Assembly: GCF_032362555.1 (NCBI RefSeq)
Contig: NC_083515.1
Span: 6,297,001 to 6,361,000, forward strand
DNA from: Amyelois transitella
Lineage: Eukaryota > Arthropoda > Insecta > Lepidoptera > Pyralidae
Direction of reading: 5' to 3'
Length of the DNA: 64,000 nt
The notes under the pieces are model-generated. The model saw only the letters and a program-made list of their open reading frames with translations. It ran no database searches and had not been told where the DNA came from. Positions 2,853 through 64,000 of this stretch are shown here, one piece after another (position 1 is the stretch's first letter; every line of letters begins with the position of its first letter). The position numbers and the translations under genes are program-made.

Positions 2853-5800
2853 ATGCAGCTCTTGTCGAGTTCCTCCTGTGTAAGGGCGAAGGAAATGTCA
2901 GGCGAACTGAGGACCGGTAGGGCCATGGAGCATTTTTGTAACATGTCTTCTTCTTGGTTGCAGTGCTCCTTGATTGCATCTGTCAGACAAAATTTATGGA
3001 ATTATTGAGATAAACAACAAAACATAGATAAGTTTTAACATTAGAATTCCAAGAACTTCTCAGACAAAAAATCTTGATTTTTGAGTAATAAAATCAGTAT
3101 AGAAATATAATTTAACCTTATATATAACCTATAAGATTTGCTTGACGAGTTTTTTTTTTTTGCAAGATTTCTTTATTGTGATCAATTTTCTTAAGAACAG
3201 TTTAAATTAAACCTGAGACATTTTAATAGAATTATTCAGGTTTCGGCTGGTTCTTTGTTCATTCATTTATTTGTATTGGAAAAATGTTCAAACAAAAAAT
3301 TACGTAGTAATTTTCAAGATGTCGCTGTTACTGACACGCACTTGGCAAAATGTCTTTATTTGGAATAAATCGTTTGTACAAATCTAAAGGGTAACTCTGA
3401 TGACCAATCTTAAAAACATTCAATTCATATTTTATACCTATGTATAAATTTCCCAGAGGGGTAGGCAGAGTCTACTTATTTTTAATATCGTCGAAGCCTG
3501 CATTATTCCTTTGTTCCATCCACATTCATAAATACTTAACGAATAACAACCTATCCCTACAGCGACCTTATCAAAAATTAATTGGTAAACGTTCTACTAC
3601 GTTCGTCTTATTCAAGAATTCAGATTACTAAATACTCGTATACTGAAGAGGCTCTTCAACAATTCCCTTTGCTTGAAAAAGTTACAGATTAAATCCCAAC
3701 GACTTCATTAATTTAAACGGTAGCGCTTAAACTAACCCTCCGCTAAACTTGTGGCCAGCTTTAAAATATGTCTGAAGAAATGTTTTACGTAGGCTATAAA
3801 TTTTTCTGTGGAAATTTCCTGTACCTGTTCCTATAAAATAGGTACTTATATCAATCTGAAGGTTTTTTTAATTTTTCTTTTTGGTGGTATTTTATTAGGC
3901 AAACATTACTGAAAACAATTTATAAAAGTTAACCAGAATTTTTAGCGAGCCAGACCGATTAAAATATAAACAACTTAGTTTATCTTAGACTATAAAGTAT
4001 CTTAATTATTTGGGAAATTCATCGTACTTTACGTGGCTGTCCAAGCTTAATTCGCCAGGGATCAGAAACCGAACATAACTAAGTAAACCCAAGAATATTC
4101 TCCTCGCCAGTATGTCCAATACTGGAGAGAATAATGTCGGAATGTAGAAACCGGCCCCAAAAATTATAAGGACATTCAATGACGCAGTCACAATATAAGT
4201 AATACTAAATTATTACGGAATTGCGTACCTTTAAAAATCCCCCAAAAGTAGTCGAGTATGTAAAGATCAAAAGCCTGTATCCATCCTTGATCTGGCACTT
4301 ACGTATTCCTATTACATTGTTAGAGGACCCGCACTTCAGGATATCTTGATACTCAAACGCTCTTCAGAAAGGTTCCAAGTTTTATATGTAAAGAGTAGAT
4401 ATCACGTAAGTAGGTACCTGCTTACCGTTTGTTTTATGAATCTGTAAAGCATATGTATATGTATTTTTTTCTTTAACATCTATTTATCTATCTAATATAT
4501 ATAAACGAGCAATTCTTAAGTATATATATAATCAGGATCTCGGAAACGGCTCCAACGATTTTCATGAAAGTTACAGATTAGGGGCTTTTCGGCTCAAGGA
4601 ATCGATTTATCAAGGTCCTAGGTTCGAGAAAGGCTCGGTTCCCAAGATATATAAACATTTTAAAAACCGCGTTTTAAGAAACAATATCAGCGCCATCTAT
4701 AACGCCACACTGGGTATAAAAGTAAAAAACTCTTTCTACTCGATACTAGATGGAGCTTTCTGATGCTAGAAATTAATCCGTTCATAAATAAAATACCGCT
4801 ATTTTGTCAAGATCGAAGAACATTATTCATATTTTATCAGTATGCAATTCATACTAAATATAATTTTCAAAAAACACGTTCTACCAAAAACAAAACCGAG
4901 CAAAGCTCGGTCAACCAGGTACTACATATTTACATGCACTTGCCCCACAAAAGGGCTACCAATATTTAATATGTATTAATAGGAATATATGAATATTTAA
5001 TTTAGTTTTCATAAGCTTTTGGCTATGTTAATTTACTTTTGTTAAAAGTAAGAACATAATATTATAATAAATATATTTTATTTTACTTTTTACATAAAAA
5101 AAGTAAATTTTCCCTCACATAAAAAGGTATCTAGTCCTGCGTCTCACGTCGTTTTAAATTATTAATATTTACTCGTTTAGTGCAATAAAGTTGCAATCAT
5201 TTAATTATTTATATTTGCAATCAAAATTTAGATTTTGATATTAATAGAACATTTTATTCTGCTTACTATTATATTTTTTAAATCATAAGTGATATTAATA
5301 AAAACTATCAAATTCGTCTATGAACGGTTACAAGAAACTAATTTGGAAAGCCACACAAGCATTACAAGTTGTTTTAGGGTTCTACATGTTATCCTTAACG
5401 TGCCAAACGTGACTCTATTACTAAACCAAACGGGGGTAGGTAAAGTACTACGTCCAAATACGAATGTCCTTTACTCTACTTACGATACTTTATATTCAGA
5501 AATAGCATTTGTACGCGGCTTCGCTTCTATGGAATTTCCAGAAAAAAAGCCTATGTTACAACAGAAAGTCTGTTCCATTTCTGTTCCAATTTTGTCAAAA
5601 GAAGTTTTGAATTTATTGGCTACAAACAAAATTGTAAAAACAACAAATCTTTACTCTTCATAATATGAGTATAGATTAAATCACAGAAAACAGAATCTTT
5701 GTATTCTGTAGATTAAATAAATATAGTGTACCTATATTTTATTAAAATTATAATTTAAACTCTACCTCAACAAGTTAAGAGGTTAAATAAGGGCATTTAT

Positions 5801-32900: not shown

Positions 32901-35900
32901 CTAATATTTGTTATATAGAAGGAGGATTATTACATAGATAAATGTAAATATATAAAAGAGGATACTAATTGACTAACGTATAAACGCATACCGTAAACCG
33001 CTAGGTGTAGACGTTTGAAATTTAGCATCTATCCCGTTGTGGTCTTGGGGTGCACTATGGTTTATTGGAAGGAGAATTTCCCGGAATTCCCGCGGGAAGA
33101 GAAAGATTTTTCTTACTAGACACAACTTCATTTAAGAGAAAAGCGAATCGCAATGAAATATTAAGTTACAACTTGCAAAACTTCTGGGGTAAGGAGTCGT
33201 CATAAATGTTAGCGTGTAATAATGATATGGCTTGTCATGTTAATGTATATTTTTAACTTCATATCGCAAAGATCGTCAAAATGTCAAAAAAAGAAGTTAC
33301 TACTTACCCACCACCAAAGATATTTCCACCACTAGTCTGCGACGGAGCGCTAGTTGTAGATATACTCGCAGCGGCAAACAAATTGGCTTCACCTCCTCCA
33401 AATAATGACCCACTTTGCGCCGTCGTCGTCACGGCTGTACCGCCAAAGAGCGAAGATTGAGTAGTTTGTGTTGGACTCCCAAATATTGAAGATTGCGTAG
33501 CCTGAGAGTTCTCAAATACAGACTGGTTACTAGTTCCAAATACAGAAGATTGAGTTGAAGGTGCACCAAACATCGATTGAGTGGTAGTAGGAGCACCAAA
33601 TAAGGAACCTTGGGTAGTAGTTGCTGTTCCAAATACATTTGGTGATGTCGTTGCAAACAACGATTGAGTTGTAGTAACCCCGAAAGCACCTGGCGTAGGC
33701 GTTGTACTGCCAAATGCTGATGCAGTTGTTGCGGGTGTAGAGCCAAATAGAGATTGCGTAGTCGTTGGCGTTCCACCGAATAAAGACTGGGAAGTTGTAG
33801 AAGTAAAGACAGATTGACTGGTAGTTGATGGTGGGCTACCAAATAAAGATTGTGCCGTAGTAGTTGCGGTTGCTGTCCTAAACACACTAGATGGCGAAGT
33901 GCCGCCAAATATAGAAGAGGTAGTGGTAGTGGTTCCAAAAACCGTTGTTGAACTAAATGCCGAATTATTTGTAGTAGCGAATGCAGGAGATGACTCAAAA
34001 ACTGACGAAGACTGAGTTGTCTTTGTACCAAAAGATGGTGCAGCAGGAGTAGGGGAACTGAAAACTGATGGTTTAGATTCACCATTACTTGATGTTGGAG
34101 TTGTTGTACCGAAAATTGACGAAGATTGAGTCGTCGTTTCTCCTGAAGTAGGTGTGGCAGAAGTGGGGGTACTGAAAATAGATGATGGCGATGAAGCAAA
34201 AACATTGGCATTGGTAGTATTTGTACTAAATATTGATCCAGATTGGGTTGTTTTAGTAGGAAAAGAAGAGGCAGCGACGGCCGAGCCAAATAATGACGAT
34301 GCAGTGGTTGGAGGAGTTCCAAATATAGATGTTTTTGTGGTTTCAGTTAGAGTAGAGACTGCTGTTGTAGGCGATTCAGTTGTCGCAGTTGCAGTGGATG
34401 TGAATGTTGGCGGGGATTTAATTTCTGTAAATAAATAACAATGTACATAAGTATTAATATAAAAAATACTCACCCTATAAATAAAATAGGTACAAAAATA
34501 TCTAAACTTACCAGTCGGTGTAGCTGCGTTTGCTGCAGCAAAAAGTGATGAACTGGTTGTTGTTGCATCAGATTTTTCCACTTCCGGTTTACTATCAGTT
34601 TTTATTTCAGTTTCTTTTTGATGTTCCGCTGGAAATTAGTTGTGTAAATGTAAACTATATTAGCATACATACATACATATAGTCACGTCTATATACCTTG
34701 CGGGATAGACAGGGTCAACAGTCTTGAAAGATTGGCAGGCCACGTTCAGCTGTTTGGCTTAAAGATAGAATTGAGATACAAATAGTAAAAGGTTGCCTAA
34801 AAACAGATTCCCAAGTTTATAAACCTATCCCTTAGCCGCCTTTTACGACATCCGTGGTGGAAAAGAGATGAAGTAGTCTTATTATTTTTTGTATGGTGTG
34901 ATATTTTGTATGCCGTGTGTTGTCATGCATTACATTGCACCAATACAAAATTTCTAAGTACAGATGAATTTAATCTTAAAGGTTGAAAGCCACTCTATCA
35001 ATTCTTACTTGTAACTGGAGTCTCGCTTGCACTTGTCACTGCTGTCTGTGGAGTTCCAAATAAAGAAGTTTTATTGGTTGACTGTATTCCAAATGGTATC
35101 ACATCAATCTTGTCCTCTGTTTTCGGCACTGATGTACTTTGTGTTGCATTCTCCGCAGATTTCTCCGGAATGTTTTCTTTTGCCTTTTCAATTTTTTCTA
35201 CAAGTTTTACAACTGGCTTGTCTATTTTTAGAACATCAGGTACATTTTGAGCGGATAAAGGCGTAGAAGTTTTCATACCAAATAAATTAGTCATAGGCTT
35301 TTCTACTTTCTTTGTTTCTGTTTTTGGTAATTCTGGAGTCTCTGGTTCTCCCGTTTCAGATGATTTCGGCTTCGCTTGTTCTTGAGGTTTCGATTCAGGT
35401 ACAAATGCTTGTGGTTGGAACTTACTAAACATGTTGGTTATGTCTGATATTGGTTTTGCTGTAAATAAATTAGACCCAGATGGCCCTGAGGTGAGAGGTG
35501 TGGATGACGCTGAAAAAGCAAATCAATAATTACATCTTTGCATAGAAAAGAAATATTCAAAGTGTAAAGAAATTACAAATACCTACCTCCAAATGCCGAG
35601 GGCGAACATATTTTCTGCCCCATAAATATGTTTGCGTCATTCTTCTGTTCTAAAAAGCTACCTGAATCACTTTTTTTCAATGTGAAAGTGTTAGTATCAC
35701 TTGTTTGTGCTGTAGAATGTGTTTCATTTTTCTGTTCCGCAACATTCGCTTCATTTTGAGCGTTCGCCAAAGCCTGTTTATTTTGTAACAATTCTTTGAG
35801 AACGCTCCTCGTGTTTGTTGCATTAGACGTAGGCGCAGCAAATGTAAAGGTAGATTGTTTCGGTTTTAAAGTAGGTTGGGGTTGCACTTGACTGGTTTGC

Positions 35901-38900
35901 GGTTGCACTTGGCTGATTGGGATCGGTTGTTGCAATTGAGGCTTCGTTGATGCGTAGTTGGGTTCTAAAATGAAAAAAAATTGTCATTCTTATTACTTAC
36001 TTACACATGTTAGCAACAAAGAAAAAATGTTTCTAAAGGACCGTAAAATGTATAGCTTTGTAAATAAAGTTTGATTTCTGTGACAGATACATACATTTTA
36101 CGGTCTATCTGTTTTGTGTTATATTAAAGTTCTAATCTATAAGTAGTTCCATTCGGCTGTAACAGAGATCAGACTGTAGATGTACAATTGTACTTGTATT
36201 CAATAAATATAACGAATATAATAATAAATAACGAAGTCAATTCTTACCATCCGTAAATAAGGTTCTTGCAACATTAGACAACGACGGTGCTACCGGTTTT
36301 AAATTGCTGATGGCGGAGAACGATGGTATTGAAATGGGCGACGGCTTTATTTCCTGTTTCGGCTCGAACTTTATCTCTTGTTTTGGTTCGAACTTCACGA
36401 GCCTTGGTGCTGCTGATGCTTCAAAAATGTATGCAATTATTCATTCGTCGTGAACTTTATACGTTGATGTTCGTTTTTAAATTAGTAAAAGCATATTTGA
36501 GCGCCAACCAATAAAAAAGCAGGAAGAACAATTTCCTATCCTACCACGGCGATAAATTACTGAGTTACGTACATAAGCTGCTTGTTATTGCTTACCAATG
36601 CTTTTATTGTGAGGGAAGACATCGCGTGAAAAAACCTGCATATTCAGGTAACTATATGTGTAACTTGTTCCAATATGAGTTAGGTGCCCTTGCACAGTTG
36701 CCAGAAGTCGCTTGTGTGGAACCTGACTTACCGAATCCAGAATTTCTCTCCAGAGAGGTAATGTAATGATAATGTATTCCTTACCGTGTGGTTCCCGGCA
36801 CTAAAGGATAGGCTTATAAACTTGGGATTTTTTTAGGCTATGGGTTAGCAACCTGTCAATATTTTAATCTCAATTATATCATTAAGCCAAACAGGTGAAC
36901 GTCTGATAGGCCACGTTCTTTTCAAGAGTGTTGGCTCAGCCTACCCCGCAAGGGATATAGACGTGATTATATGTATGTATGTATTCCTTACCAATAGACA
37001 CAGGCGACGGTGGCTCCACCTTAGGTAAAACTTTTGTTTCCTGAACGATAGGCTGAGCAGCTTTTTCTCTCAAATTCTTTTCATAATTTATCTTCATAGC
37101 GGCCAGTCGCTGCCTCATTTCTACGCTAACAGGTTTTATTTTTATCGTCTTATGGTTCGATAACATGTCTTTTAAAGCGTCCAGTTTTTGAGCGTTTAGC
37201 AATGGCTCCTTTGTCTTGTTTTGCGGTTCGATACTCATGTTCAGTATGTTCTTTGTTAGTTTTGATAGAGGATCTCTAAAATCAATAATAAAAATATATG
37301 CTGTTAAAACAAGTTATTGTGATCATTAATCTCATATGAATTCCGAAACTTCACAGACATCTTGGTGTGTAGTAGTTGTATTTTTACCAAAAGTTAAAAA
37401 TAAGTTTTTAAAGTGCGTGACTGGAGGATCAATAAAAAGGGTGTGTATATTTTGTAGATAATTTTTTTAGTAGTGAGTTTTGTGTTAATGTGTACACAGA
37501 TTGATTATATGAAAATCGTTATTGATGAAAGTTTTTGGGCATAGATTCACAATATTTATCTTGAAAAATTGTTTATAAGCCACTATTTAACGTAAATTTA
37601 AATGTCACACATAGATGTAGAAAAAAAGGCAGAGTTAGTGTGGCTTGAAAAGAAATTGTAGCATCGTAATTGCGGAATTTTACGCATGTGTGAGTGACAG
37701 AAAATTAGATAATCTATGACGTAATGGCGGCCAACTGCCACACTATTGGTGAGTGTGTGCGTGAGGCGTGTATATATACAGTATACTATTGGTGCTTCAT
37801 TTGGTGCATAGTAAAACTTCGTCTGCCTTTTTATACGTCTATGTTGTCACAATATAATCTTACTTGTTCTTAAATGGAGTACTTCTCAACAGCGACGCAG
37901 ACTTGAACATAGGCGTCATTTCGCACTCCTTTAGAGTGTTTCTCAGAGTTCTCAACACGGCCTGTTGTCTGCACAGTATCTCTTGTTGTTTGACGAGCGG
38001 TTGGTAAACGTCGTCGAGTATGGGCCGAATCATGCGGTGGCCTGGTCTGAAAAACAGGGTTTGTTTAATTATTTTTTTAATGTTTTGTCTAAAATAGCTA
38101 TATCAGTTTATTTTAAACATATATTTTAGACAATAAATATATTTTTTCAGATTTGTTTTGAAGGATAATCTTAAACCCAGAAAAATAGGATAGGCCCAGA
38201 AGTGGGACAGACATTTATTCAACTAATAATCTTCCAGATTTTAGTGTTTGGATGCTTTACTTCTTTTTCACTTCAAATGAATTCTCTTTTAGTTTGAAAC
38301 GGTTGCGTTTTTGCTCTTGTCCGGAGGCTTAATCGGACTTGAATCATGGTTGTTGCCAAAAATGTAATATCGCGCAGATTGCATAATTAGATTTTATACA
38401 GTTTAATATTTCGCCGTATCGACTTAACGAGACCAAAAAATTTAACACGCTTGTTTTTGTTAAAATTATTTAACTCGCTTAAGATGTATAGGTTTTCACT
38501 TCACTACACCAAGAAAAATACAAATACCACAATAAAAAATAGGCCACGAGGTACAAAGGGGGTTTATCTCTAAAGCAATCTCTTCCATCTAATTTTGTGT
38601 TTATTCGCTTTTACAATTCTTTGCGATATCAAATTCTTTTTATTGTATGAAAATCTTACTTGTGCATATTCATTTCATTAGAGGCAATAATATTCCACTT
38701 GTAATCCAATGCCTTTTGCGCTTGTTCAACCTGGTTTTGCACGTAGTACGCCAACTTTTTGACTGACGAAATTCGCTTGTTAGTCAGAGGGTCTACTTGA
38801 GTCCACTGATGTATATCTTTCGCTCTGTTGACAAAGATACGATTTTAATTAAGAAATAAGTAAAATGAATGACATCATCAACTTGTTGAATATCGTAAAA

Positions 38901-52280: not shown

Positions 52281-53322
52281 TAAGGTATAACCTTGTCACA
52301 TTCTTTTCCAAAGAAAAGTTTGTTCACAGCCGTGCGTTGAATTGTGGTCATTGGACCGACACTTTTAAGGAGAAGAGCGCTCTTGGGAAATCTACAGCCC
52401 TCCCCATAATAGTGTTTGCTCATTTGAGTATCTTTTAACGTATTGTATTCCATGCTTAGCGGTTGGGGATGCCGGCCCTTAAGAGCTCGAGAGATGCAGT
52501 AGTTGAAAATACACCTATTTTAAATTTAAAACGATTTTGTTTCGCTTCTCCCACGAATATTTAAAACTAATAACGAAATTCGGTAGCTACATTTGTTGTG
52601 ACTGTAGTTCTTATTTAGATTATCTTTGATTGATTTTCTTCATAGATATTGGTTATTCAAGTTCGATTAAGTAAAGAAACGAAGGATTTTATATTCAGCT
52701 TACCCAAATTAAAATACAAAATAACTTATTATAATGATGCCAACTCCTACATTTTCCATATGCACCAATTACAGAATGACAAAGTCCATTGAGAATTTAA
52801 TTAAAAATATACTTCTTGAGTATGTTTTATAGCTATAGCATTCTCATAGCTGTATCTATACCCTTTTTTGAACGGCGTTACCGCATCAATACTGCAGTTG
52901 GTAGCACTGCGAGGGCAATTTACGCGGCAACAAAACAGGCCTGCCAACTGCACTGCGCGTAACGGCTACAAAAATATAACCTCGAAATTTTGGTGCAATA
53001 TTTTTCGCTTTATAAAACTTTATTTGCTCGGATGGTATGCAAATACTTTATTGTTAATTTGAATTGCAAGCAAACAATTTGAAAACGAGCCTCAAATAAT
53101 GCAGCTCGTTTTCACTCCGCCTTGGAAATCAAATAAAAAGTCAGAAGACCCGTATTGAATTATTTATTAGATTGAATAGACAATATTTCTCAAATAACAT
53201 ACAGTTTTCATAGAAAACAGAATTTTATAAAGTAAAAGTTAGGCACATTCAGAATTCAGGTCTGAATTTGCACTAAACGAATGAAGTATCCATCTGGCAC
53301 AGCACTTAATTACATTACAGAA

Positions 53323-53410
53323 CAAATATACATAATCACGTCCACATCCCTTGCGAGGCAGACAGAGTGAACAGTTTTGAAAAGACACGCTCAGCTACAC
53401 AGAATGGATA
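53323..53410 (-). repeat. short SINE-like (ATGT)n family fragment
   Basis: Contains ataatcacgtccacatccct and gaggcagacagagtgaacag; only the tail-proximal quarter is left. It is in or just beyond the protease 3' region. Confidence 0.65.
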
Positions 53411-53789: not shown

Positions 53790-56700
53790 TCAGTTCCTTA
53801 TATTGTTACGTATCCAATCTAAATGTTGATACACATTTGTATACAAAGACGGTACGGACGTACCACATGGCGCATCTGCTCTTTTTCCACTAACTACTCC
53901 GGACACGAAGTACTTCCCTTCATATTGCAGCATCAGAGGACCACCAGAATCTCCTTTACATGTGTCCTCGCCAGAATAACCCGCTGCACAAAGTTGGGTA
54001 TTTGATAGATTTGGGTAGTAATTTCTGCATTCCCTATTAGGGACGAGGTTGACGACTGTGGATTGCTTGATGTCTGATTTGTATTTTCCGTTTCTTCCCC
54101 AACCAGATACAGCCAGGCGAAGGTTGAAGAAGTCAGGTTCGTCAACGTTGATGGGTGGAAGGCAAATAGGGCGAATGTAATCTGTGGAAATAAATACTTT
54201 TTTACTTTCTAAATGTCTTTCTTCTAATCATTTAGGCTGTTAGCCTGCAGAGTATTCTCATATATTTCCTGCCAAAGAGGAAACACTGAAAAAGTATTCT
54301 CACCAGTATAAGGTGCTGGTCGTTGTAACTTGATCAGAGCTATATCATTGAACAGCCTATCGTTATCATAGTTAGGATGTGGAAAGAAGTTCTCAGCTCT
54401 TATCACGATGTTCTCAACACATTTCTGTCCTTCTCCAAGAATATTCTTGCAGTCCCTCGGAAATGTGCGCTTATCAAACTCCGCTAGGTAGATTTCAATA
54501 CTGCAAAAAAAACAAGGGACATTTATAAGTACTGGTACATTTTATATATGATTTTCATTTCGTTACTGAATTATACACCGAAAATAATGTAAAATTAGGT
54601 GGTCTTAATGCTGTGGCATTTCTGCCAATCAAACCCGAAAATGAAGTGCTTATGTTTTGAAATTTGTTTCATATCCGCTTACTGTCACTTGCCTACTATA
54701 AAAATCGTAGTATACTTGCTGCTTTTCTAAAGCCTAGAATTTTCTGAGTATAAAAACTCGACTTAGTTTTAATTCTTGCTGTATTTTGCGTCAAGCTAAA
54801 CGTTCACGCTTCGAAATCATAAAAACTTAAATGGGTAGTTTCCAAACAAACTGTTGCTCCTTTTATAGGCGAGATCAAGAGTGTCGACCACAACATTATA
54901 CAACACAGAACTAACTTCAGGCAGCAGGCAGCCCTCAGGGAAATCTAAGACTGTCTTGAAACTTCACTAAAAATGCCGAAGAAGGAATAATATTCCAACT
55001 TGCATACTAATTGCAAAACCATACATACATACATACATACATATGATCACGTCTATATCCCTTGCGGGGTAGACAGAGCCAACAGTCTTGAAAAGACTGA
55101 ATGGCCACGTTCAGCTATTTGGCTTAATGATAGAACCGAGATTCAAATAGTGACGGGTTGCTAGCCCATCGCCTAAAAGAGGAATCCTAAGTTTATAAGC
55201 CTATCCCTTAGTCGCCTTTTACGACATCCATGGGAAAGAGATGGAGTGGTCCTATTCTTTTTTGTAATAGTGCCGGGAACCACACGGCACAACCACTTGT
55301 CTAGAATTTATTATTCAGGAAATTATAAAGCTGCCTATACAAGTAAAGTTTTATGTGGTACTTGTGTTTGGTAGGTCATCTTTTTAGATGTTCTTTTTAT
55401 CAAATGTCTATCAATATTTTATACTGGAGTTTCACTCACATAGGATTTTTCAAGAAGAAAAGTAATCCGTCCCGAGTCTTCGAAGATCTATTTATATACA
55501 TTTTAATCGGTCCCGTAGTTAAAATGTTTTCATTATCTCATTTGGGATAAATCGTCATTGTGCATTTTTGAGCATTATAAACATATATAAATCTTCTGTG
55601 GATAACTTACTCTTTGACCCGTGCATTATCATCGACGACGCAATGACCAGCAGTCAGCACGTAAAAGGAGCTGATGAGAGAACCTCCGCAGTTGAAGGAG
55701 GCCTCGCTGGACCCGTAGTCGAAGGTGGTCTTCAGGAGAACTGTCCAGGGAAACTGTTCTAGCTCCGTTTCTTTACCACCTGTAAAGCAATTTAAGAAGG
55801 TGGGATGCAGAGAAACGTTTCATTACAAACATGTTTTCTTTTTAATTTCAAGTAGGTAACTATGTTACGATGACAATGCACATCTACACCAATAGTGTTT
55901 AAAGTGTGTGTGTATTTGTAAAATAGTCGAAATCGGGTAATGACAAAGAGATAGTGATAAAGGTACCTATTATACATTATTCGTACAATCATCAATATTT
56001 AACGATCATCATAAAGAAAAAACAATATTTGGATTTTTGTGTTTTTATAGCTTTTTATCAATAATTCTGTCCACTATTCAAGTGTGCTAATATTGCATAC
56101 AAAAGCGTACAGCAGATTCACTCGGTGCATTTTTTATTACATACAACAGATTCCATTGAAAATAAAACACTAAAATCACAATGTATTTTGACAATAGTTT
56201 TTTGGCAAAAAATTTTGTTTGTTAGCAAAATATTGCTAACAACACTGTCGGTAGTTGGGGTATTGGCAAATAGATTTATTCAATAAATTTATCTAGTTAG
56301 TTTTGTAAATTATGCGATTAAAAATGGTAAAGCCTATTCAAAATTTACTATGGGAAGCATACAAATATTATGCCTTTATCCTTATGCGTTAGACATAGCC
56401 GACTGTTTTTATTTTGCACTACATTTTTATTATGTCGAAGTTATATGTTCTGTCTAAATACATAGAGATCTACCAAATAACTGAATTGCAAAGAAGGTTT
56501 TTACTGAGGTAGTATTCTTCGAAGGTGTATCTTGTCGAAGTAGATCTATCTTATCAATGCTAAGTAGTTGAATATATGTTTTGTAATTACAATTAATGTC
56601 GAATAAAATTGGTTTTCGTAATTAAGACTTAATGTCTAAATAATCAACTGTTGAAATTCTGAATGATAGCGGTTGTTCGCCTCCAAATTGAGTTAACATC

Positions 56701-59700
56701 GAACTTACCAGCAATACGATGATCAACCGTTACATTAGTAGCTTGTCGTTTAAATCTCATTTGGGAATTCCAGTTTCTGTAATCATCCATCGGTGACTTC
56801 CAAGGCCTGTCCATCCTCGGTCCTTCATTCCGGGAGGCCCATGGTTGCCTCACTATTTAAAAAGCGGTTAGGTACAAATCGTTAGTGGTGTAGTAATAAG
56901 CAAAGACATTTATTAGGGATGATGTCGTTGCCAGACAGATAGTAGATAAATGATTAACGGTGCTGAATGTGACATACTAATTAATTTATATGCCTCTATT
57001 AGATTTGCGGAGCAATTTCCTTTTCATATTAAACTTTTAAAATGTCAAAATTTAGAATTTAATGAATTTTGATGTGATTCGTAGTAAAAGTTTATGATTA
57101 TGTATAGTAAGCTAATAGTTAATATTGTTCCTTTTATAGGTTAATGACGGATTATCAAGAACCTACTTTATACTAATTAAGTGAAAAAGTAACGGTCATT
57201 GTTATACAAAAGGATTAGCGGAATAGCATAGAGGAACAGTAGTTAGTAGTTTAGTTATTGGTACTGAACCTTTTTTTGTTAAAACAGCTATAGTATAGAG
57301 TTACTTTGAAACTTACCAATTATTCTATCAGAATCAGTAGCTTCTCTGCCGCAGCAACCAGATTCGGGATTAGGCGGATAACTTGTCACAGGACACTGAT
57401 TTCCTGAATTTGATCCACCAAATGAGTTTCCACCTGGAGTGTTTTGATTTCTACCAAAAGAATTCCCGTTTCTTCCAAAGGCATTTCCGTTTCTACCAAA
57501 GGCATTTCCATTTTTTCCAAAGGCATTTCCGTTTCTACCAAAGGCATTTCCATTTCCACCAAAGAAATTTTCATTTCTACCAAATGAATTGTCATTTCTA
57601 CCGAAGGAATTATCGTTTGAGCCAAAATTATTCCCGTTTTGACCAAAGTTATTTGCATTTCCAAATGCATTTCCTTGTCTACCTAAAGGATTCTGATTTC
57701 CACTAACAGAGTTCCCATTTCCATCGAAGGGATTTCTATTTCTTCCAAAGTTTTGGTTATTTCTGTTCCAGTCATTGTTTGCGGGACGCGGTGCCCAGTT
57801 TCCTTGATTGTATGGCTGTCTAACTTGATGATTCTGCGGTGCTCGATGAGTTTCATAACTTGGTTCATAATTATTATCTGCCGGTCTATTAGAACCTGTG
57901 TCATAACTACTTAAAATATCAGTTGGCCGATTCGAATTATCGTTGTCAGCTGGTTTGTTATAATTTAATGCGTTATCTCTTTGGTTTGGCGGTTTGAAGT
58001 CCGATTGCACATTATATTGTGCATTTTTGTTGATATTTTGTTCTTTGGTTCCTTGAGCGTCGTTTTTATCTGTACCCCAGATTGAATTTGGACAGCAAAC
58101 CTCAAATAAATAAGATTTTAATATAAGTATGTGCATTATAAGTTATCACAACATACATACATATAATGATGTCTATATCCCTTGCGGGGTAGACAAAGCC
58201 AGTCAGAACAGTCTTGAAAGGCCACCTTCAGGTGTATGTTAAATAATAATATATAATAAAGTTATCTCAAAATTTCAGAAGATAATAAAGCTACATAATA
58301 TCTACTTTATTAGAATGTAAAACGTAAAAATCCTGGTACACGTTTTTCAGTTTCACCAATTGTGACAATATAAGCTAGCGTCGCGCGTTGTTTTTCCTCG
58401 CAAATGTTTATTTTGTAATTTCTCTCTCAGAATAACTTGTATGCACTCTGTTGTTTGTACAGGTCCCATTTATCAAGTGGCGTTTCAGTAGGGGTATAAT
58501 GACACGTTCGTTTTGTGATAAATTGCTACAACAATGCTCGATTTCTGTTTAACACAACACTGCATTTAAACCATTGATATCAAGTAAATTAATGCACTGG
58601 ATTAAATATAGTTTTTATCAAGAAACTACTTGGGAATAAGATACGATTATTGTAAGAAAGAAAAAATAAATTATTTATATCTAATTATTATGAACATTGG
58701 TGGAATTTTCCGACCTAAGTATTACCAAGTTCGAATCTTATTCTAATCTCTTTTCTAACAAACGATTAAAAACTTTAAATTCAAATTATATAATTCGGCC
58801 TTTGTGGCGCAGCGGTAATACGCTTGACTGTGACATCGGAGATCTCGGGTTCGAATCCCGGTCAGGGCATGATGAGAAGGGAACTTTCTCTGTTTGGTTT
58901 GGGTCTTGGATGTTTATCTATCTAAAAATTAATTATAAAATAAAGTATCGTTGAGTTAGTATCTCATAACACAAGTTTCGAACTTACTTCGAGGCTAACT
59001 TAATCTGTGTAATTTGTCCCGTATATATTTATTTATATTTATTTATTATAATTTATTGCTTTTTTATTTAAGTTGCTTATTACATAAAGCGACTTATTCT
59101 TATATTTTTCTTGTTTGCATTTGAGTTCCAAATAAAAAAAAATATGATACTTAGATTACGTTGTGCAAATCAAACCAAATCTCGATATCTACATGCATTT
59201 CCAGAGCATACGCAAATAATGTGTCATTTTGGAAGGATCTCATTCCAGCAAATTAACAAGCTTCGAATCGGTGAATCAAATTGTATTAAAAGCAATTTGC
59301 ATCATCGACAATATTAATGAGGATGATACTATTTAAATAACTTTTAGTTATTGGCTGATTATTTAAATTAAGTATATTGTTTGGTCACTCATGTGTGGAC
59401 ATAATTATTACATTTTTGTTTCATAATTAATTTTATAAGCTTCAACCAGACATTAATGAATATCTAAGTAATATCACAATCTAAGTTTAATATAAAAAAA
59501 AATCAATTGAAAATGATTATAATTATACTTCTTTTCATCTATTACTACATACTTCAAATATGAAAGTTTGTTTCTTATGTAGAAATGTACGGTTATTTCC
59601 TTTTACGCAAAATCTTCTTAAACGGTTTGAAAGAAACTCTAACAGTAATACGAGTATAGGTAGTAATAACATCAAAGCGAAACCGTGCATATACTGGATA

Positions 59701-61452
59701 CCCAATCATAATATCTAATGCCTTATAAATAATTGTCAAAATGTATGATTATTTAAAGACAAGTCACACATGTTTACTTACCATATCGCCCTTAGCGGTC
59801 TGTGAAAATCCAAAAAGTGGTCCGGTGTCATGTTTGTCAGATTTGGGACACTCAAATCTTTCAGCCCATCTCTCCTGTTCTTCTCTATTCAAGTTTCCGT
59901 AAAAGGAACAGCTGTTTATAGGCAAGCATTTCTCACATTTTTCTAAAACATAAAACAGGAATATTATCTTTCTCATAATATCAGTTTTTTCATAATAGAA
60001 ATAAATAAAAAATGGAAAATTTCGCTTGACGAATCAGAACAACTTTCAGATTTGACTAATCAGACACATTTTATTTTACGTTTTGATTGCAATGAAATAA
60101 TGAGCAGTTTGTGTTTGTAGCCTAGCATATTATCTGTAGCTGAATTTGACTATGTTAACACGGAAATTAACACGCGTAAACCCATGCCTAAACTCGACTA
60201 GGGAACTTTTCGTCCCAAACCCATTTTTAACTTCGGCGTGGAGATGGTTAATTTAACTTTAGCTCTGAAATGTTACGGTTTTCTTTATTAAAAGTTTTCT
60301 CACAAATATTTTTCGTATTATTTGCAGACTCATACGATGGGAAAACAAGGCGACGAAATAATCGTAGTTGGCTTGGGATTTTGGTTACGTAGATTTGTGT
60401 TAACATCTTATCTAAAATACTCTAGGATTGTGGACTTAGGCAGACCTCGGGCTATTGCCGAGAGAGAAAATGCAACCGGGACTAGCGCTCGCTTGTTATG
60501 TTTGGTACTGAGGTCTGTTGGAAAACTATACTTATGGGATCGAATTACACTGCCCGAAGAAATAAAAAGTTGAATGAATATCTTCAACAATATTATTTTA
60601 TCGTATTACGATAACCTAAAATATATAGACTTATGTTATTTATCAGTTTTGAGTGTATATGTTTGATGTCGGTTACTATTAATTTGTAGGCTACTTTATT
60701 TACACTTGTAAGTATGGCGGCTTAAAGGTGGGTTTACTTTTTGTATCGGTAAAAGTTTGAAATATATAATAGATAATGTCATCGAGTAAAAACTAATGCG
60801 AAACATAAGGTTCCACAAATTGCGTATTCCTTGATAGTATGTATATCATCTCGCGTGGAAGTAATTTGTGTCTGGGAAGTTTACGAACAAAAGCTAACTC
60901 ATGAATATTTTAAATTTGGAATAACTATCTATGGGGTGCACATTTTAGAAAACAATATAAAACAAGTTTATGACAGGGCTTTAGAATTTTCGTTTCCTTT
61001 TATAAAGTTTACCCTAGGTTTTGCCGCATCGTGGTTTCGTGTTGGCAAAAAGAGTCATAACTCCCTTAAGCTGTTATCAAACAATGTTAACCTGTTTGCA
61101 AATATGGAATTATTAATTTGCACTGATAATTTTTTACTAGATACTTAATTCTACAATTACGTTTTGGACCTGACGTTACAACTGATTTTTGAATATCCAA
61201 GACCAGACATGAATCAATATTGTTTGTACGATAAAGTTTAAATAAATAAACAAGAGCCCAAAGAAACATCTTATGATATGTAACCTTTTAGAAAGGTAAA
61301 TATCGACTGTATTCTACCTGTTCAAAAGATATATAAATAAAATAGTAGTAGTAGGCTACAAAAAAAAATAATAATTATGAAACATTACCTTTGCGTGCCT
61401 CAACAAGGAACAGCAACGTTACAACAATGAGACTCACTGAAGGCCTAATCAT
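53790..61452 (-). CDS. CLIP-domain trypsin-like serine protease with Asn/Gly/Phe-repeat linker
   Basis: Exons: 61452-61389 (signal peptide MIRPSVSLIVVTLLFLVEA), 59942-59782, 58100-57317, optional 56852-56709, 55779-55611, 54500-54304, 54181-53790. Without the optional exon the protein is 588 aa, with it 636 aa; both keep frame. Exon 2 and the start of exon 3 give a six-Cys CLIP domain (CEKCLPINSC ... FEC ... VCCP). A disordered linker of about 240 residues with NGNAFGR repeats follows. Activation would cut after Arg in DSDR-IIGG. The catalytic triad is complete: His382 (TAGHC), Asp445 (NDIALIKL), Ser537 (GDSGGP); Asp531 (site 189) predicts cleavage after Arg/Lys. The extra Cys pair (RDCKNILGEGQKC) fits easter/PAP-type CLIPB proteases, which activate Spatzle or prophenoloxidase. 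Its own target is unknown. Confidence 0.92.
55020..55290 (-). repeat. SINE-like (ATGT)n family, best-preserved copy
   Basis: CATA tail (55022-55041), then gatcacgtctatatcccttg, cggggtagacagagccaaca, gttgctagcccatcgcctaa, cgccttttacgacatccatg and finally gtgccgggaaccacacggca. Used as the reference for the other copies. In the protease intron between the His and Asp exons. Confidence 0.85.
56709..56852 (-). other. in-frame cassette exon with a second activation site
   Basis: A 144-base exon with phase 1 at both ends, a usable acceptor (ctttttaaatAG) and a strong GTAAGT donor. It encodes 48 residues without Cys, including MDRPWKSPMDDYRNWNSQM and RFKRQATNVTVDHRIAG. Its end repeats the layout of the upstream exon end (REATDSDRII versus RQATNVTVDHRIA). 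Skipping it gives R-IIGG; including it changes that to R-IIVR and creates R-IAGG just before KETELEQFPW. Confidence 0.75.
57430..57680 (-). repeat. 21-nt minisatellite coding the GNxFGRN linker repeat
   Basis: About ten tandem units of 21 bases inside the large protease exon, each reading roughly NGNAFGR, NDNSFGR or NGNAFGK. Adjacent units near 57470-57560 are almost identical at the DNA level, which points to recent expansion. Alternative frames across this region (57383-57706 and 57386-57670) are shadows. Confidence 0.85.
58152..58240 (-). repeat. SINE-like (ATGT)n family fragment
   Basis: catacatacatataatgatg, then tctatatcccttgcggggta and cttgaaaggccaccttcagg. It lies about 50 bases upstream of the large repeat-linker exon of the protease. 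Confidence 0.75.
58798..59060 (+). mobile_element. tRNA-derived SINE
   Basis: The head (58798-58868) has a pol III A box (TGGCGCAGCGG) and B box (GGTTCGAATCC) in tRNA spacing. A non-tRNA body follows (gtatcgttgagttagtatct, cataacacaagtttcgaact, ctaacttaatctgtgtaatt), ending in TATTTATTTATA repeats. The acceptor stem is poorly paired, so this is a SINE and not a working tRNA gene. It is antisense in the intron between protease exons 2 and 3. Confidence 0.8.
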
Positions 61453-64000
61453 CTTGATAATATAATTTTCTTATTTCTATTGACACCGAGACGGCGTATA
61501 CCATGAGCCCTATTAACCAACTGATAGTTGATATTAATACGAATGCTCGCGTAATTGTCCCTTGTGGGTATTTGCCATTAGATTATCAACCGCTAATTGG
61601 TCTATTAATTTAGATGGTAGCAATTAAATAAGTTGTTCTAAGAATGAAAACAATACTCAGATTGGAATGCACGGTGTTGAAATGTACTAACTTTTTTAGT
61701 AGTCTTACAATGTATTTCCTCGTTTTTTTGTCTAATTAAGTACGTCATCATTCTGACGTAGACAATAGCATATTTAATGTGCATGTAATCATGAGTCACT
61801 TTGTGGGAAACCTCTATTTATTTAGTTACGTTTTGTTAAAATCACTTTCGGAGTTCTAATTTGTTTTTTCAATCTTTTTGGTACAAGTTTTGTTGGAATC
61901 CTTATGTTATTTCCAGCATTAATCCTTTGCTATTTTACCTGGCAAATTTGTCTTAATTTTATCAGTTAAACAACTATTTTTTATTGTTACCATTTTAAAG
62001 AAACGAGATTTCTACAGTCTACAGCCTTTTTTTCAATTATAAGTGCATTAGATTGGTAACCAAAAATTTAAAAGTTTTGTTCTATTTTACGTTTTAATTT
62101 CCGTTATATACGTTAAATATCGTTACGTTAATAGTATCTACTGTGTTATATTAACATTTTTTATGAATATCTCTTTCGTCGCATTCAAACTTAGAACTGC
62201 ACATAACTGAAGCTTACAATGGAATCTCGGAAATTCGCAAATAAATTGAATAGCGTCGGTAATTGGCCAGTCGGATGTGAAAACGAAAACGGCGCAGCGC
62301 ACGCACTGGCAGGGTTGCCGGACCGCCAGGGAGACCTACAGATTGTCCTAACATTTGGGTTAAAAAGCCAAACACCCTAAATAATATACAATTTAATCTT
62401 ACTTCTGCGACGAAATTAGCTTTATTTTGATTGCTTAATACATCAAAAGCCGGACAGGCAATCAAAAAGTATGTCCGGTAAATCTGGACGCCGGCAACCC
62501 TGCACTAGCAGGGCCCGAAATTCAATTAGTGGCCCAACGTCCACTCTTTACGATAACACAGAATCAAACGGACTGCATTTTAGGCGGTATTTGCGTTTTG
62601 CAAACAAAATTGGGGATTACCAATACTGCGTTTCCTGTAACATATTGCTTATGCCTTTGACGAAGGACATCGCAAACGTTTTCATGAAAAGAAAATGTAC
62701 TTGTTGATATTAAAATGTATGATAATTAAATGAAAATTACGTTTTGACTACAAAATTGGAAGTGATAAGTACTTACTGATTTATTTAATAATTTTGAGAT
62801 AAATAACCTATAGTTCTCTGTTTCACTTTTTCCTCATCTAGCATGTTTCTTGTTTGCATTCTCAACTGTTAGTTTCAATGATAGAGGACCAGCGAGAGAC
62901 CAGGATTACAACTAAGGAACATAATATTTCATGCGCTAAAATAATACCTAGTGTTTTTGTCACACACACCTTACTGTGTTGAAAATGATTGGCCTCGCCA
63001 AATTTTACAACCCATACTGTTTTCTATAAGTAAAAAAACATTGAATGTCCAGTTCATGTCTCAAATGTTTTTTGCGCGTATAACTTTATTAGCCCACAAT
63101 AACAAAGGTACATCTTGAAATTTAATGAGTTTTAAAATCTCTATTGTCTAAAGAAGATCTGAGGCCAATTTAATTTAATTTTTAAACAGTTTGGCCGCTT
63201 TCCAGAGCAATGGCATTATGAAACGTTAGCTAATTAAATGAAGTAAGTGTTGTCTAATACATTTTAAGTACTCTTGAAACGATGTGAAAGAAATAAAGTT
63301 CGGTCAAGAAAACAAAACAAATTTTTGTGCGATAGATTTGACGTATCAAATAAACAAGGCAGTTGTCGTACTCCCCTCGCCCAATAAAGATGGCGCGCGT
63401 AATTAATCACAGCTGTTAGGATACATAGAAAATCACGATCTTATTAGTGACCGTCGAATAACGTTGTTTGACTTGGAGGAATCTCTTCTTATGATCTAAG
63501 TGTAACATTTGTAGTGCCCGAATCTTTAAGTTCAATTCGATTCAAATTTAAAAGTTACCTAGCAATTTTCAGCTCATGCGATTATGCAAAAAGTCATTAC
63601 TCATGCCTGATAATTATTTGAATTAAATTTGAACTTAATGTGCAGCTTGAAGAATGTATACTAACAAAAAAATTAAAAATACATGACCGATAGGTGAAGT
63701 CAAATAAAAATAAGGGTCAGTTCAGTACTCACAAAGTAACTAAAGAAATCGATGTCACAAAGTTGCAAACGGTCGGAAAACTTTGTGTGGAAAAGTTTAG
63801 CAAGTAGTCGAGATTTTATTGATATTACTGCGAGTCTTTGGAAGAGCGATCATGGTGGATGTAACGAGACCACGCCAGCTAGACCGTCGAATAAAATTTG
63901 TTTGTACCTTGTGAAAATTTGTCCAGGTTGGTTGAAGTACTAAACAATGTAGGGAAGTTTAACTTTGTTTGCATATAATACTGGCTTTTGCTTGGGGTTT
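61453..64000. other. right-hand intergenic region
   Basis: Upstream of the protease start. It contains a hAT-like MITE (62311-62501). The rest is AT-rich DNA, with a slightly GC-richer patch at 63360-63420 and a 63-codon plus frame at 63752-63943, neither with support as a gene. Confidence 0.4.
62311..62501. mobile_element. hAT-like MITE with 8-bp target duplication
   Basis: The ends read AGGGTTGCCGG... and ...CCGGCAACCCT, inverted repeats of about 11 perfect bases that continue imperfectly (ACCGCCAG versus CGTCCAG). Directly outside lie GCACTGGC (62303-62310) and GCACTAGC (62502-62509), an 8-bp duplication with one change. (C)AGGGTTGCC ends and 8-bp duplications are typical of hAT elements. 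Confidence 0.8.

Follow-up and report, generated by a model that had tools for sequence, protein, structure and literature searches.

The stretch of DNA analysed here, a 64-kb region referred to as the window, carries on its minus strand a gene (61452-53790) predicted to encode a CLIP-type N-terminal region with six cysteines, followed by a linker rich in repeats and by a trypsin-like domain that is intact. The minus strand was read from position 64000 to 53000, exon ends were placed by exact match, and both predicted transcripts were assembled; all introns are of the GT-AG type in either assembly. E1 (61389..61452; this and all following exons on the minus strand), defined by its reading frame and GT donor, contains the start codon and a segment, MIRPSVSLIVVTLLFLVEARK, that resembles a signal peptide by eye, and it ends in phase 1. 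The first four CLIP-type cysteines (24, 27, 33, and 53) are encoded by E2 (59782..59942). E3 (57317..58100) supplies Cys5 and Cys6 (VCC), an N/G/F-rich repeat linker, a QCP...GCCG stretch, and the first putative activation junction, DSDR-IIG. There follows a cassette exon of 144 nt (56709..56852), in phase 1 at both ends, which together with the last base of E3 codes for VRQPWASRNEGPRMDRPWKSPMDDYRNWNSQMRFKRQATNVTVDHRIA and contributes the initial base of the glycine codon that follows. The catalytic domain starts (GG...) in E4 (55611..55779), where His57 resides within TAGHC, continues in E5 (54304..54500) with Asp102 in NDIAL, and is completed in E6 (53790..54181), which bears Asp189 and Ser195 (DTCKGDSGGP) and the stop codon; these residue numbers were assigned by eye.

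The C-terminus matches the trypsin domain PF00089 along its entire profile (148.9 bits, E 2.5e-43, profile 1-220 of 220), and the translation retains the catalytic triad motifs TAGHC, NDIAL, and GDSGGP as well as, by eye, Asp189. Among solved structures, the closest catalytic domain by sequence is that of prophenoloxidase-activating factor I (PPAF-I; PDB 2olg, E 4.7e-44), for which we know of no alternative activation exon. The next solved relative is 2xxl, a gram-positive specific serine protease that we take to be Drosophila Grass. The segment after Ser214 (53860-53920, minus strand) reads VVSGKRADAPCG and is three residues longer than that of the aligned PPAF-I, a difference that may give the specificity pocket an unusual rim. 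The six N-terminal cysteines lie at residues 24, 27, 33, 53, 77, and 78, with the fifth and sixth adjacent, an arrangement that the excerpted text of a honey bee survey gives as its manual criterion for a clip domain (PMC1761132). The Pfam CLIP profile PF12032 gives a match below the cut-off (12.5 bits vs 20, E 0.19, profile 10-44 of 54), and it is not listed for the full-length protein at E values up to 1. We use the name "CLIP-type" because the cysteine pattern and the order of domains fit while PF12032 stays under its cut-off. An R-I-x-G-G junction separates the CLIP-type and catalytic domains in both predicted forms of the protein.

Several other features of the window were recorded. Within E3, the linker region at 57400-57784 (minus strand) is a run of 21-nt units encoding NAFGRNG-like repeats, several of which contain GGT-AGA and thus, by eye, a weak phase-1 donor (G/GTAGAA; here and below, a slash marks either an exon boundary or a predicted cleavage point). 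Splicing from such a donor to the cassette acceptor would delete the first activation site and leave the second alone. A short interspersed element is present in three copies, located downstream of the gene (53320-53386), in intron 4 (55031-55097), and in intron 2 (58151-58201). Intron 2 also contains, at about 58870-58790, a stretch resembling a tRNA B box by eye (gggattcgaaccc), perhaps part of a tRNA-derived SINE; ARAGORN reported no tRNA in the window. Elsewhere on the minus strand (33304-35935), open frames with SLFG/TTTQ repeats resemble, by eye, a gene for an FG-repeat nucleoporin.

A sequence-only reading of this locus had proposed that inclusion or skipping of the cassette exon preserves the reading frame, and assembly of both transcripts bears out its coordinates, phases, and junctions. 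The lepidopteran source that this reading assumed fits the family pattern. The phase-1 end of E3 comes after ...CCGREATDSDRII-G, and E4 begins in phase 1 at 55779 (GGKETELEQFPWT), such that the predicted protein comprises 588 residues when the 144-nt cassette is skipped and 636 residues when it is included, with both frames open and terminating at a common stop codon. In the skipped form, the junction reads CCGREATDSDR/IIGGKETEL. The residues R-I-I-G at this site are encoded by 57317..57326 (minus strand), the P1 residue is Arg334, and a gtaagt donor follows directly. In the included form, the sequence becomes CCGREATDSDR-IIVRQPW...RFKRQATNVTVDHR/IAGGKETEL, in which a second junction, R-I-A-G (56709..56718, minus strand), is again followed directly by gtaagt; its P4-P1 residues are VDHR, and P1 is residue 382. 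The two predicted proteins thus carry different junctions, DSDR/IIGG upon skipping and, upon inclusion, DSDR-IIVR plus VDHR/IAGG, before one and the same catalytic domain, as had been proposed. Also in agreement with that reading, three cysteines are found near the end of E3 (residues 311, 324, and 325, the three further cysteines of the linker) and none in the cassette. The skipped junction is situated 9 residues past the last of these cysteines, and the included junction 57 residues past it. Joining E2 straight to the cassette leads to an immediate stop, as judged by hand from the phases, and the cassette can therefore only follow E3, as an optional insert rather than as an alternative to it.

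Could a segment of this kind arise by chance? The intron between E3 and E4 (57316-55780, 1537 nt) contains one exon-like segment, 56852-56709, flanked by ag and gtaagt and leaving introns of 464 and 929 nt on either side. No other GTRAG donor in the intron has an open phase-1 exon 40-300 nt long before it. Paired with another in-frame acceptor, at 56822, the same donor would yield an exon of 114 nt. The cassette is open in only one of six frames, namely the coding frame. When the intron was shuffled with dinucleotide content preserved, some open phase-1 exon appeared in 16.8% of shuffles and one of at least 144 nt in 0.83%, and one ending in R-[IV]-x-G was obtained once in 3000 (0.03%). Overlapping 1537-nt tiles of the real window, coding sequence included, yielded an open phase-1 exon in 83 of 240 cases, one of at least 144 nt in 28 of 240, and one with the R-[IV]-x-G ending in 0 of 240. 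Since 28 tiles hold an open exon of this length, it is the ending that carries weight and not the length. This ending was defined after the case had been seen, yet it is dictated by the phase-1 G-G start of E4. On both strands of the entire 64 kb, R-[IV]-x-G/GTRAG occurs twice, at the end of E3 and at the end of the cassette; 60 shuffles of the window gave a mean of 0.38 occurrences and a maximum of 2.

The GC content of the cassette (0.47) is similar to that of the exons of the gene, compared with 0.29-0.36 in the introns, and a value of 0.47 is reached by 2 of 984 overlapping intron windows. A codon score as high as the cassette's is seen in 3.15% of 444 open segments from the introns and in 37.7% of 1071 open shuffles matched for GC content, the latter figure implying that codon usage adds nothing over GC content. 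By eye, the pyrimidine tract of the acceptor is short, and a branch-point-like CTAAC string lies ahead of the acceptor. That the cassette is a chance string is very unlikely. Judged by frame, splice signals, and composition, it is a well-supported candidate for a genuine in-frame exon, with a role that is attractive but unproven.

Relatives of the gene in the same genome offer a view of the arrangement that may have preceded the cassette. Two paralogues on one contig (C25), L003 and L004, have an intron at the position of the E3 end, likewise in phase 1 and within a PP-P...CCG layout. The junction reads CCGVDSNGANKIIG/gttagt in L004 and CCGIDINDDEMIG/gtgggt, with a changed P1, in L003; in a further paralogue, L005, the acceptor fits (the upstream exon was not located). 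Because two paralogues share the junction intron, the skipped arrangement looks ancestral and still intact. In the 436-nt intron of L004, an open phase-1 candidate of 66 nt and another of 51 nt are nested, and neither ends in an activation junction; the string R-[IVL]-x-G/GTRAG was not found on the gene's strand in L003, L004, or L005. In a partial survey by tblastn, 32 of 33 loci gave 39 matches at E values up to 0.5, after weaker matches and repeats within one 150-nt bin had been dropped; some of these 39 represent one gene in overlapping loci. A junction resembling R/K/E-[IV]-x-G-G is in frame with the catalytic start in 28 of them, including one RIVDG and one RIMGG. In the stretches upstream (at most 6.5 kb, often less), R-[IV]-x-G/GTRAG was encountered for 1 of the 39, in L001, where the reading is not that of an activation junction. 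Thus, no similar cassette was detected among the paralogues covered by this partial survey. Searches of two further collections for relatives produced 5 pattern matches in viral_contigs and 30 in genome_contigs, none of which was confirmed, with the proviso that neither scan is certain to include near records. A search for a recent paralogue or a processed copy, either of which could preserve a splice form, found none: queries made from the cassette plus E4, from the catalytic domain, and from the CLIP-linker region reached at most 64% identity elsewhere (36 residues).

Two observations on these paralogues stand apart from the cassette. The junction of L003 (about position 3388, plus strand) reads CCGIDINDDE-MIGG, with neither Arg nor Lys at P1, and it may accordingly be cut by an enzyme other than a trypsin or else be degenerate. 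Two other loci on C25, L007 and L008, lie about 18 kb apart and give the same protein matches with at least one residue differing just upstream, as would befit a very recent tandem duplicate.

The sequence-only reading had also seen, in the layout R-(E or Q)-A-T...R-I-(I or A) shared by the ends of E3 and the cassette, a sign that one was derived from the other. This part of the proposal fared less well. The exon ends GAGAAGCTACTGAT and GACAAGCTACTAAT match at 12 of 14 positions (local p 0.002), the intron side gives p 0.08, and the sum of exon and intron gives p 0.0013. Against pairs of donors from the window, the exon-side score is reached by 1.8% of 903, and the intron side by 16.7% and 15.5%. 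When the whole regions around the two exon ends were aligned, the score was reached by 179 of 500 shuffles, and extension anchored at the two ends returned 0.43 for the exon, 0.17 for the intron, and 0.18 for their sum. Of twelve such figures, three fall below 0.05 (0.002, 0.0013, and 0.018), all of them arising from the one 14-nt match; the other nine, which span the whole-region alignment, the anchored extension, the protein alignment, and the intron side, range from 0.08 to 0.43. A repeat finder pairs the two intron starts over 24 nt at 75% identity, among many pairs of similar quality. The comparison lends weak support to a common origin of the two ends by tandem duplication. Two other sources of the cassette were considered and set aside. 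Its likeness to the linker's VRQP stretch has p 0.18, and an origin from a transposon or repeat is unsupported, as the 361 bp comprising the cassette and its flanks match only themselves in the 327-Mb genome, in a search that skips very common words.

Inclusion of the cassette adds more than a second junction to the predicted propeptide, which gains R-F-K-R (residues 369-372; 56746..56757, minus strand, coordinates counted by hand) and an N-V-T sequon (residues 376-378), neither of which is present in the skipped propeptide or mentioned in the sequence-only reading. The motif R-x-[KR]-R is a substrate motif of furin, and a test for it returned RFKR in the included form only. Each motif taken alone is unremarkable, with R-x-[KR]-R occurring in 17% of shuffled cassettes and a sequon in 33%. 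The presence of both just before the activation site suggests that the cassette may do more than swap one cleavage sequence for another. In other CLIP proteases, a linker cysteine pairs with the catalytic domain. By analogy, a linker cysteine would pair with Cys465 here, and a form nicked by furin would stay disulphide-linked. The excerpted account of Drosophila cSP5 describes an RFKR furin processing site between the clip and protease domains, with cleavage there in Sf9 cells being a possible explanation for the major band (PMC10732536). The included form has this site in common with cSP5, for which the excerpts mention no splicing switch of RFKR (PMC10732536). It is this RFKR at a like position that leads us to propose that furin may nick the included form ahead of its activation cut.

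Alternative splicing is known from other genes for proteases and their inhibitors. The MASP1 gene gives rise to different proteases, MASP-1 and MASP-3, which share their N-terminal domains and have the whole protease domain exchanged; in the gene described here, by contrast, the protease domain is shared and the activation junction alone changes. In Manduca serpin-1 and Tribolium serpins, the reactive loop, on which the choice of partner protease depends, is encoded by alternative exons (PMC1761132, PMC2375007, excerpts), and splice isoforms are also noted for wasp serpins (PMC11818254, excerpts). These proteins are inhibitors with alternative loop exons, whereas the present gene encodes a protease with a single cassette. 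A close parallel is Drosophila Hayan, in which, according to the excerpted study, isoforms generated by splicing have identical clip and catalytic domains, between which the PB and PD forms carry an insert of 259 residues (PMC10732536). With or without the insert, Hayan was activated alike by the microbial proteases that were tried, and it activated downstream proteases alike (PMC10732536). Hayan-PA and -PB are thus like the present gene in that one gene uses splicing to alter the segment between the clip and catalytic domains; they differ from it in that the peptides ending at the activating histidine are alike in both Hayan isoforms (GGKPLTVH; PMC10732536), whereas here the junction itself would be replaced. 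Excerpts of two further papers (PMC10629668, PMC1949825) contain no precedent for a spliced activation junction, and of 405 papers with at least one of four activation-site strings, the 20 listed include none on a clip protease. As far as the open-access texts and excerpts searched extend, no CLIP protease with an activation junction replaced by splicing was found, a result that is no proof of absence. Splicing within the propeptide of a CLIP-type protease is therefore already known from Hayan, and replacement of the activation junction is without precedent in the open-access literature as sampled.

We favour, at about even confidence, the interpretation that the 144-nt segment is a genuine cassette, with the skipped zymogen activated at DSDR/IIGG and the included zymogen at VDHR/IAGG, the latter perhaps nicked first at RFKR. 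In the skipped and probably ancestral form, a cut after DSDR would expose a new IIGG N-terminus that activates the catalytic domain. Inclusion would add 48 residues and disarm this first junction, as a cut there would leave an extension beginning with IIVR and no usable N-terminus; activation would then have to move to VDHR/IAGG. The included form may be nicked at RFKR in the secretory pathway and then wait for the second cut. We infer that the gene produces both zymogens, each with an activator of its own, and that furin may process the included one. Both junctions are intact despite the scant nucleotide similarity of the exon ends, a pattern that retention of both would predict. Because the exon ends are largely unalignable, they would have to be old if they are duplicates, in which case decay of the frame or of the junction would be expected in either one if it had no use; for this reason, we think that both forms are produced. 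This argument would not cover a young cassette with an origin other than duplication. A bolder version, which we consider improbable, is that this one exon switches the mode of activation, the skipped form being a one-chain zymogen cut at DSDR and the included form a furin-nicked molecule with a glycosylated QATNVTVDHR peptide that is cut by another upstream protease, such that splicing would place one gene in two cascades.

Two serious rival accounts of the same features bear on whether a choice is made at all. The cassette might be constitutive, in which case all transcripts include it, activation always occurs at VDHR/IAGG, and DSDR-II represents either a remnant or a site of non-activating cleavage. 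Nothing in the sequence forces skipping, both E3 and the cassette have GTAAGT donors, and 144 nt between introns of 464 and 929 nt is an ordinary exon. However, E3 retains an exact, working R-IIG/G junction in the pattern of L004, which would be free to decay if unused, and we regard this account as somewhat unlikely. The reverse would hold if the cassette were an unused or dying pseudo-exon and only the skipped zymogen were produced. Its absence from all paralogues in the partial survey, codon usage no better than that of GC-matched shuffles, and an acceptor tract that looks short by eye would all fit; its full structure, on the other hand, recurs in one of 3000 shuffles and none of the 240 real tiles, and its open frame and exon-like GC content are retained. 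We consider this explanation unlikely.

It is also conceivable, albeit doubtful, that the cassette is spliced in as a spacer or as a glycosylated, furin-cut linker, with any choice of activator being incidental, as with the Hayan insert. This proposal overlaps the one we favour, in that it accepts the splicing and not the change of activator. The RFKR and NVT motifs of the cassette are in keeping with it, as is the 259-residue insert of Hayan-PB, with which activation, as tested in the excerpted study, was unchanged (PMC10732536). Unlike in Hayan, however, inclusion here necessarily replaces the activation junction.

Surveys that consider one isoform per gene would miss an activation-site switch of this type. 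In Ostrinia, for example, between 2 and 4 isoforms are annotated for 28 of 177 SP/SPH genes, and the longest alone was kept, according to excerpts of the survey (PMC10036332). The wiring of insect immune and developmental cascades is set by the pairing of each protease with the zymogen that it cuts. If splicing swaps the activation site of a zymogen, as proposed for this gene, such wiring could be changed by tissue or by stage without the need for a new gene.
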